DNA from: Acidobacteriota bacterium
GTDB taxonomy: Bacteria; Acidobacteriota; Terriglobia; Terriglobales; Acidobacteriaceae
DNA length: 64,000 bases
Assembly (NCBI GenBank): GCA_021779935.1
Contig: JAJXZT010000016.1
Location: 124,001 to 188,000 of the forward strand
Direction of reading: 5' to 3'
Both the position numbers and the translations under genes were made by a program. Positions 53,786-56,556 of the stretch are shown here, in pieces. The notes beneath the pieces were generated by a model. That model worked only from the letters and a program-made list of their open reading frames with translations, was not told where the DNA came from and made no database searches. Numbering within the stretch: position 1 is the stretch's first letter; the number at the start of each line of letters is the position of its first letter.

Positions 53786-54913
53786 GTGAGAGCCTTTGCC
53801 CCAATTGAGCGGTTCGTCGCGGATGTTACTAACCGCAGTCTCAAGCTCGCATATATTTTCGTGGGAGACGAGGCATTCTTTCGCAAGCAATGCCGCGACG
53901 CCGTGCTCCAGGAGTTGATTCCCGCGGGTATGCGGCAATTCAGTTTCTTCGAATTCGACCTTGAAAGCATTGAGATACAGGAAGTGCTGGACCGCGCACG
54001 CACGCCTTCGCTGATGTCTCCGTTCCAGGTGTTCTTTGTGCGTGGCGTTAAGGCGCTCTATGGAAGAGGCAAGCACGATGCCGAGTTTGCCGCGATCGAA
54101 GAGTACTTCAAATCTCCGAATCCCGATGCGCTGATTATTTTTGTTGCCGATCACATCAGCATTCCGTCCGATCCACGCCGCATGGAATTGACCGACAAGG
54201 AGCGCTTCGAGAAAATCCGCGAAACCCTTGGCGACTATTGCACTGTGGTGGAGTTCGCACGTGTCGAAGAGGATGAAGCCGTCAAATGGGTAAATGAAAC
54301 AGCCGGTCGGGAGCAGGTGAAAGTGGATGCCGATGCCTCCCGCGAGTTGGTGGACTCGCTCGGCGGCGACATGATGATGATTGCCGGCGAGTTGGAAAAA
54401 CTCATTCTCTACACCGGGGAGAAGAAGAAAATCACGCTTGGCGACGTGGAGACAATGGTGCTTGCGGCCAAGCAACGCACCCTCTACGAACTCACGGATG
54501 CAATTTCGTCGCGGAACCGGCAGCGTGCGCTGGAGATCATGGACGCGATTCTTTCCACGGGCGACGGTGACGAGGCCGCCATTGGCCACCTCTACATGCT
54601 TGCCAAGACCTTCCGCCAGATGCTCGTTATTTCCGAGCACAACGTTCGCGACTCGCGCGCCCTCTGGCAGGTCCTCTGGCAGGGATTCCGCGTGCCGCCC
54701 TTTGCCGCCGAAGATGTGATTCGACAGGCGCGCCGCTATAAGTCCCGCCGCGAACTGACACGCGCCATCCGCCTGATCGCGAAGGCCGACCTCGCACTCC
54801 GCTCGAACGCGCCGAGTAAACGCCTCATCCTCGAAAACCTCGTCCTCGACCTCGCTTCCGAGCCGAAACCTGCGGAGATCGCCGGCTGGCAGCAAGAGGA
54901 ATTGCCAGTATGA
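53786..54913 (+). CDS. holA: DNA polymerase III delta subunit
   Basis: A 375-residue clamp-loader subunit: YIFVGDEAFFRKQCRDAV at the N-terminus, a degenerate P-loop, and the helical C-terminal domain (KQRTLYELTDAISSRN, GHLYMLAKTFRQML). GTG 53786 lies 6 nt after lptE, the common lptE-holA order. Its stop overlaps the start of the SRA-HNH gene (ATGA). Confidence 0.93.
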   Translation: MRAFAPIERFVADVTNRSLKLAYIFVGDEAFFRKQCRDAVLQELIPAGMRQFSFFEFDLESIEIQEVLDRARTPSLMSPFQVFFVRGVKALYGRGKHDAEFAAIEEYFKSPNPDALIIFVADHISIPSDPRRMELTDKERFEKIRETLGDYCTVVEFARVEEDEAVKWVNETAGREQVKVDADASRELVDSLGGDMMMIAGELEKLILYTGEKKKITLGDVETMVLAAKQRTLYELTDAISSRNRQRALEIMDAILSTGDGDEAAIGHLYMLAKTFRQMLVISEHNVRDSRALWQVLWQGFRVPPFAAEDVIRQARRYKSRRELTRAIRLIAKADLALRSNAPSKRLILENLVLDLASEPKPAEIAGWQQEELPV

Positions 54914-55599
54914 ATGCAGGCGATATCGTCAGCCATACCGAAATGTGCATGAAAGAAGGGAGAATGCTTCAACATGGCATGAACTTCCGAACCGCACAGC
55001 GGAATTCGGTGATTCTGATGAGTCGTCGTAAAGGCGCACCATACCATGATCGGGTATTAGAGGAAGGACGAGTCCTGATTTATGAAGGACACGATGTTCC
55101 CAGAAAGCTCAATGTTGTGGATCCCAAAGCGTGTGATCAGCCTCGGAGCACTCCTTCTGGGAAACTCACGCCGAACGGGAAATTCGAACAAGCCGCACTC
55201 CTTTTCAAGCAAGATGGCAAGAACCCGGAGCTAGTGCGCGTCTATGAGAAGATCAAGACAGGTATCTGGACCTATAACGGAGTCTTTCGGCTAGTTGACG
55301 TGTGGATCGAAGAAAGCGAAAAACGGAAAGTCTTCAGATTTCGTTTGGAACTGACTGACGCTGATGTTGCGGATAAGCCAAATCAGGCTGATCTTGAACA
55401 CAACCGATTAATTCCATCAGCTGTAAAACAGGAAGTATTCAAACGGGACAAGGGACGCTGTACGCTTTGCGGTGCTACCGACAACCTCCATTTTGATCAT
55501 GACCTTCCGTACTCGAAAGGTGGCACATCCATAATGGTCGAAAATGTGAGGCTATTGTGTGCGCGTCATAACCTGCAAAAGCACGATCGAATCGAATAG
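54910..55599 (+). CDS. SRA-like + HNH nuclease (candidate modification-dependent restriction enzyme)
   Basis: A 229-residue two-domain protein. Residues about 20-150 look like an SRA/YDG base-flipping domain (EEGRVLIYEGHD, then TYNGVFRLVDVWIE and VFRFRLEL), as in plant and bacterial 5-methylcytosine readers. The C-terminus is a compact HNH nuclease: Cys184-x2-Cys187, Asp196-His197, Asn212 and Cys217-x2-His220. The pairing is known from McrA-like modification-dependent endonucleases. No methyltransferase is adjacent. The gene has more A+T than its neighbours and rarer codons, suggesting transfer, yet it overlaps holA by 4 nt. Confidence 0.8.
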   Translation: MNAGDIVSHTEMCMKEGRMLQHGMNFRTAQRNSVILMSRRKGAPYHDRVLEEGRVLIYEGHDVPRKLNVVDPKACDQPRSTPSGKLTPNGKFEQAALLFKQDGKNPELVRVYEKIKTGIWTYNGVFRLVDVWIEESEKRKVFRFRLELTDADVADKPNQADLEHNRLIPSAVKQEVFKRDKGRCTLCGATDNLHFDHDLPYSKGGTSIMVENVRLLCARHNLQKHDRIE

Positions 55600-55665: not shown

Positions 55666-56430
55666 CTATTCCGCTCTGAATGTCTGGGCTGAGTTTCTAC
55701 TCGCCAGAAAGTTTCGCGCCTCTTCCGCATACGGGCCGTTGGGCTCTTCGTCCAGGAAGGTCCGGTATTCCGCAGCAGCCTCATCCTCGCGATGAAGATT
55801 GATCAGTGCTTCCGCGGCGACCAGGTGAGAGAAGCAAAACAGGTGATGCTCCGCGCGGTGGACCTTCTGCGCCATGGCAAGTGCTGCTTCATAATCTCCA
55901 CGCTGCAGTTGTGAAAACGCCAGGATGGCGAGTGCGCCAACGTTTCGTGGGTCGGGCGCGAGTGATTTCTTCAGAAATATTTCGGCTTCGGCGTACCGGC
56001 CCTCCTGCGTCAGTAGAATCCCCATACCCAGTTCGGCCAGGTAATTCCCCGGATTGATTTCGAGGGCCTTGGTGAAGGTCTCGCGAGCCTGCTCCGGTTG
56101 ATTGCCCTGAAGGTATGCGATGCCGAGATCGTAGTAAGCCGAGTCGTATTTCGAGTAGTATTCGAGCGCTTTCTGGAAGTGCTTGATGCTGTCGTTCCAC
56201 CGCCGGTTGTCGCAGTGGAGAAGTCCCTGATGCAATTCGGCCCGCGCCTTCTTCGGAGCGGCCAAATCGTTGACGGACATGATGTTCGAGGAAAAAACGC
56301 GATCGCCCGCCGGTGGCGATACGGCGTGGTTCTGTTGTGGTTGTTGTGCCCGAGCCATGCTGAAAAGCACGAGGATAAGAAGGAGTGCCAGTACTGCCGG
56401 TGGGGCAGGCGGCAGCTCTGAATGCTGCAT
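55666..56430 (-). CDS. Exported TPR-repeat protein
   Basis: A 254-residue protein: hydrophobic signal (about 11-28) and about five TPRs (HFQKALEYYSKYDSAYYDLG, TFTKALEINPGNYLAELGMG, FLKKSLAPDPRNVGALAILA, then a weaker pair). It probably scaffolds protein complexes in the periplasm. ATG 56430 has GGAGG 6 nt upstream; the longer form is rejected. Confidence 0.8.
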   Translation of the reverse strand: MQHSELPPAPPAVLALLLILVLFSMARAQQPQQNHAVSPPAGDRVFSSNIMSVNDLAAPKKARAELHQGLLHCDNRRWNDSIKHFQKALEYYSKYDSAYYDLGIAYLQGNQPEQARETFTKALEINPGNYLAELGMGILLTQEGRYAEAEIFLKKSLAPDPRNVGALAILAFSQLQRGDYEAALAMAQKVHRAEHHLFCFSHLVAAEALINLHREDEAAAEYRTFLDEEPNGPYAEEARNFLASRNSAQTFRAE

Positions 56431-56556
56431 AAGCGGCCTCCGCAAGAATGCCGCGGGTGAAGAACTTGCACCTCGCCCGATGCGGAGAGTTATACGCCAC
56501 TTAGGTGTTATGTGTGTGTGATGGCGGTCACTGAAGTACTGTAGGCGAGGAGCAAT

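Follow-up and report, generated by a model that had tools for sequence, protein, structure and literature searches.

The gene that overlaps the 3' end of holA in the 64,000-nucleotide stretch of DNA analysed here (the window) very probably encodes a stand-alone type IV, i.e., modification-dependent, restriction enzyme of the SRA-HNH kind, which was acquired horizontally into a variable slot behind holA. Enzymes of this kind are already known, and on structural and residue evidence the window protein is a sound further example of them. What remains of interest is the repeated capture of such genes behind holA, and the coexistence of the window gene with an EcoRII-type methylase in the same genome.

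Table 1. Positions of the features in the window, or in the genome where so indicated.
Feature	Position	Strand	Remarks
SRA-HNH endonuclease gene	54910..55599	+	229 aa plus stop, ATG start; structure match to TagI 6ghs
holA, DNA polymerase III delta subunit	53786..54913	+	TIGR01128 E 6.7e-63
SRA domain, residues 19-147	54964..55350	+	Pfam SAD_SRA; flipped-base residues Q21, G23, Y45, D47, Y58
HNH domain, residues 184-227	55459..55590	+	Pfam HNH; D196 H197, N212, N221
Zinc ligands of HNH domain	C184 C187 C217 H220		residue counts in homologue alignment
Final 24 nt of holA coding sequence (ends EELPV)	54887..54910	+	SD-like GAGGA upstream of SRA-HNH start
Convergent TPR gene bounding the insertion	55666..56445	-	in closest relative ends 7 nt past holA stop
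EcoRII-type restriction-modification locus	L150 4932-8389 (G000 contig 58)		EcoRII homologue and Dcm-like C5-methylase

The initial annotation described the gene as starting inside the stop codon of holA and as foreign in composition, and both descriptions hold. The open reading frame has exactly the limits given in Table 1, and its ATG shares the letters ATGA (54910-54913) with the TGA that ends holA. Its GC content is 48.1%, compared with 59% for the window, and its GC3 is 49%, compared with 64-78% in the neighbouring genes; a GC content equally low is found in only 0.3% of 690-nt segments. The neighbours are lptE, holA, the TPR gene, rpsT and phoH. When the surroundings of the gene were scanned for promoter-like and terminator-like signals, weak matches only were obtained, including three promoter-like ones where 1.1 are expected, all weak and one of them at 54902-54929. 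The SRA-HNH gene would ride on the holA transcript and be expressed by read-through, and it may also have a promoter of its own.

That the protein is an SRA-like reader fused to a complete HNH domain, as also proposed from the sequence at the outset, is borne out by homology and structure searches. Pfam SAD_SRA matches residues 19-147 with an E-value of 3.2e-6 and 27.4 bits, which is under the gathering cut-off of 30.7 bits, and Pfam HNH matches residues 184-227 above its cut-off (E 5.5e-6). A structure model built from an alignment of 84 sequences has a mean pLDDT of 85.8, with the linker 156-164 under 50. The top Foldseek match of this model is TagI (6ghs; E 6.6e-9, 247 columns spanning both domains), and below it rank SUVH5, further SUVH SRA domains and ScoMcrA. 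In a slower structural alignment the model scores Z 13.2 against the SUVH5 SRA domain and Z 12.4 against TagI. By sequence, the 84-sequence profile matches the SUVH5 SRA domain (E 2.8e-4), and TagI is listed by the PDB sequence search neither with the single protein nor with the profile. Since TagI is missed by sequence and the Pfam SRA match falls short of the cut-off, the link to TagI rests on structure and residues. With an SRA domain at its N-terminus and an HNH domain at its C-terminus, the protein is built as the SRA-HNH modification-dependent endonucleases of the TagI family are.

The residues themselves are conserved to a high degree. Relatives are encoded at 80 loci in the species-genome collection, nearly all of them 48-62% identical to the window protein, in Bacteroidota, Chloroflexota, Planctomycetota, Acidobacteriota, Pseudomonadota, Thermodesulfobacteriota and archaea. 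In the profile alignment, Q21, G23, Y45, D47 and Y58 correspond to Gln392, Gly394, Tyr416, Asp418 and Tyr428 of SUVH5, where the SUVH5 numbers were assigned to chain positions by counting. In SUVH5 the pocket residues insert into the DNA, and stack on and hydrogen-bond to the flipped 5mC or 5hmC (PMC4740795). The window protein has the two tyrosines (Y45, Y58), the aspartate (D47) and the thumb-loop glutamine (Q21) of such a pocket; among the 84 homologues the first three are invariant and Q21 is present in 83. The catalytic histidine, the asparagine and the zinc ligands of the HNH domain are likewise all in place: C184, C187, D196, H197, N212, C217 and N221 are invariant in 84 of 84 homologues, and the position of H220 is occupied by His in 78 and by Cys in six. 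Asn221, found in every homologue, stands where TagI has His254, so that a second histidine of the TagI type is absent. Asparagine is common at the third HNH position in HNH enzymes, and Asn221 is treated here as permitted variation and not as a defining failure of membership in the TagI family. At the 69 columns that are conserved in at least 90% of the 84 homologues, the window copy departs from the consensus once. Of the two outcomes that the initial annotation named as refuting its reading, a missing SRA fold and unconserved HNH residues, neither occurred. The gene is intact by every sequence test applied, and its product is presumably active.

From known members of the family and from the residues present, the following mode of action can be proposed. 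The SRA domain would most likely flip a 5-methyl- or 5-hydroxymethylcytosine out of the DNA, with Q21 filling the gap left behind, Y45 and Y58 sandwiching the flipped base and D47 reading its Watson-Crick edge. Nicking or cutting nearby would then fall to the HNH domain with its bound zinc (D196-H197...N212...N221), probably in dimeric form. The protein thus probably cuts DNA with modified cytosines, and it would restrict incoming DNA that carries them, for which a partner methylase should be unnecessary.

In agreement with the early claim that a partner methylase is lacking, no methylase gene adjoins the SRA-HNH gene in the window, and beside the approximately 80 homologues there is neither an open reading frame with C5-methylase motifs nor any recurrent partner; the one C5-methylase of the genome lies elsewhere. 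The gene thus stands alone. A classic type II restriction-modification system was considered and rejected, as the adjoining genes lptE, holA, TPR, rpsT and phoH include no cognate methylase.

The SRA-HNH gene is an insertion, missing from the closest relatives. Comparison of holA 3' regions across relatives, as suggested in the initial annotation, shows the site to be empty in G029, the nearest of the relatives sampled (holA 79% identical), in which the TPR gene ends 7 nt past the holA stop, while the window has at the same site the 690 nt of the SRA-HNH gene and 66 nt more. Of the 398 genomes of the host family, 21 have a homologue. The empty site, the low GC content and this patchy presence support acquisition, and the gene would have come in by horizontal transfer, at the variable slot that separates holA from the convergent rpsT side. 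Phage and plasmid collections gave no full-length homologue but only matches to the HNH part, so that no transfer vehicle was found. On two Deinococcus plasmids (NZ_OV024759.1 and NZ_CP086382.1), an HNH domain with 52-53% identity falls under genes whose annotation is TerD family protein, which suggests either a TerD-HNH fusion or a neighbour.

Since four of the 21 family copies have internal stops or are reduced to C-terminal fragments (L131, L132, L133 and G284), the gene appears to decay often in this family. From these broken copies one could argue that the window gene, too, is a degenerating or inactive defence remnant, which is intact in sequence by chance. This is very unlikely for a copy that is a full-length open frame, retains all catalytic, zinc and pocket residues and is off consensus at a single conserved column.

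Consider now the slot itself. In those surveyed genomes in which rpsT is seen, it lies convergent to the 3' end of holA, with a gap of about 40 nt to 3 kb between the two genes. At the loci L151-L250 this gap varies from under 100 nt to over 3 kb, and on the holA strand it often holds a gene for an arylamine N-acetyltransferase or one of the ICMT/PEMT-like kind. In the survey of holA 3' regions, which covered 100 family genomes including eight chosen for carrying the SRA-HNH gene, the slot holds nat (arylamine N-acetyltransferase, PF00797) in 30 genomes, in 25 of these at less than 200 nt from the holA stop, and ICMT/PEMT-like genes lie within 200 nt of the stop in nine. Seven family copies of the SRA-HNH gene are directly behind holA (those of the window, G097, G027, G292, G229, G283 and G405), and that of G292 is in turn followed by nat. 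The G128 copy is located about 1 kb and the G239 copy about 6 kb further on from holA; other family copies are located elsewhere. When the seven directly linked copies are taken together with those of G128 and G239, the nine linked copies fall into two separate clades of the tree, one with the window and G097 (97/87) and one with the other seven (100/95). The two clades imply that the slot was filled twice, or that it was filled once and the resident then replaced by a foreign copy. A single ancestral and vertically inherited link to holA was tested as one clade of all linked copies and rejected (AU p 0.007), with the same p value after five further family copies had been added.

The initial annotation also proposed that the position behind holA could tie the level of the nuclease to replication, and this proposal is not supported by the comparison. 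Read more broadly, such a link would have translational coupling match the nuclease to the clamp loader, or the enzyme act at replication forks, e.g., on newly made modified DNA. The ATGA overlap, the SD-like sequence in holA and the seven copies directly behind holA in two separate clades are what could be expected if it were so. However, only in the window does the start overlap the holA stop (G097 has 2 nt between the two genes, and the remaining directly linked copies have 13-94 nt); the slot is more often occupied by nat, and also by ICMT/PEMT-like genes, with no evident tie to replication; family copies are also found elsewhere; and none of the approximately 80 homologues outside the family is beside holA, within up to 5 kb on each side. 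(Three Bacteroidota homologues, L002, L003 and L074, are near the ribosomal protein genes rplM, rpsI and rpsB and tsf, which is another housekeeping neighbourhood.) Because the slot is variable and holds nat far more often than SRA-HNH, and the overlap is confined to the window, a replication-linked role is unsupported and must be considered unlikely. The placement is recurrent but does not point to replication.

What may instead draw genes to this slot is the tail of holA. An SD-like core occurs in the last 24 nt of holA in 83 of 99 family genomes, which are related and hence not independent, compared with 24% in nearby holA sequence. The core is a by-product of the conserved EELPV tail of holA, and through it the slot could more readily accept genes that arrive there.

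The genome of the window does encode one C5-methylase (G000:C58:6117-7457, minus strand). It is Dcm-like (PDB 3lx6, E 6e-90; 3me5, E 1e-89), has an intact catalytic GFPCQP motif, and adjoins a full-length EcoRII homologue (Pfam EcoRII-C 1.5e-51 and EcoRII-N 1.7e-23; PDB 1na6, E 5e-49). Related EcoRII/methylase pairs occur in G029 and G024. By homology, the mark to be expected would be CCWGG with 5mC at the inner cytosine. TagI cuts Dcm-methylated DNA, and the tolerance of TagI by its host has been ascribed to the absence of C5-methylases there (PMC6212794). The window host cannot be explained in the same way, unless its methylase is silent or the contig carrying it is misbinned. G283, another of the holA-linked carriers, has a 60% identical methylase. 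Over the family, a C5-methylase is present in 5 of 17 intact carriers compared with 171 of 377 non-carriers, which is an avoidance trend only (Fisher p 0.22).

When a nuclease of this kind and a Dcm-like methylase occur in the same cell, the known SRA-HNH enzymes being able to cut Dcm-methylated DNA, the window enzyme probably either does not act on C5mCWGG, or is present at a low level, or meets a methylase that is silent. The conflict would be resolved most simply if the enzyme required a narrower sequence context than TagI, preferred 5hmC or were made in small amounts. As a variant of the preferred reading, and not as an alternative to it, the enzyme may read a modification or context other than C5mCWGG, e.g., 5hmC or 5mC in another context, and so coexist with EcoRII-type methylation. 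The methylase with its intact motif and its EcoRII homologue, and the similar methylase of G283, speak for this variant, while the tolerance of C5mCWGG by TagI and ScoMcrA (PMC6212794, PMC7461809), pocket residues that look generic for 5mC and 5hmC, a methylase that may be silent and a bin that may be imperfect (72 contigs, 1.6% contamination) speak against it; on balance its chances are somewhat short of even. Taking slot and methylase together, one can tentatively picture the holA slot as a docking slot, in which the holA tail supplies the ribosome-binding site, SRA-HNH genes have been captured at least twice independently besides nat and others, and the nuclease, coexisting with Dcm-like methylation in two carriers, has a specificity that has moved off C5mCWGG; this composite picture is possible but rather doubtful.

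A conserved gene tail with a ribosome-binding site already in place would be a simple explanation for the gathering of accessory genes behind a housekeeping gene, and the case bears on how a nuclease for modified cytosines lives in a genome with an EcoRII/Dcm-type methylase. Beyond the window, compact SRA-HNH proteins form a widespread branch (Bacteroidota, Chloroflexota, Planctomycetota, Acidobacteriota, Pseudomonadota and archaea), and since the 5mC/5hmC pocket of its members is complete and their HNN active site invariant, they are good candidates for new modification-sensing enzymes.

Among known systems, TagI from Thermocrispum agreste (PDB 6ghs) also has an N-terminal SRA and a C-terminal zinc HNH domain in one short protein, a Tyr/Asp/Tyr base pocket and no partner methylase. 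Its pocket consists of Tyr55, Tyr67, Asp58 and Gln35 (PMC6212794). It differs in length (about 285 aa compared with 229 aa) and in its zinc ligands, which are C-C-C-D in TagI but C-C-C-H (CxxC...CxxH) in the window protein, a pattern that occurs in other members of the SRA-HNH family (PMC6212794). The window protein further has Asp before the first His, and Asn as third HNH residue where TagI has His. The SRA domain of Arabidopsis SUVH5 (PDB 3q0b-f) is the closest both by sequence profile and by structure, and its Gln392, Tyr416, Asp418 and Tyr428 are all matched, but SUVH5 is a plant histone methyltransferase reader without nuclease. ScoMcrA (PDB 5zmm, SBD-SRA-HNH) shares the SRA and HNH modules, and its sulfur-binding domain is absent from the window protein; like TagI it cuts 5mC and 5hmC DNA (PMC6212794, PMC7461809). 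ScoA3IV (Sco5333) and TbiR51I, finally, have the same SRA-HNH architecture as the window protein; both depend on 5mC, stand alone and are toxic to Dcm+ E. coli (PMC6212794), whereas the window host itself encodes a Dcm-like methylase, so that specificity or dose must differ if both enzymes are active.
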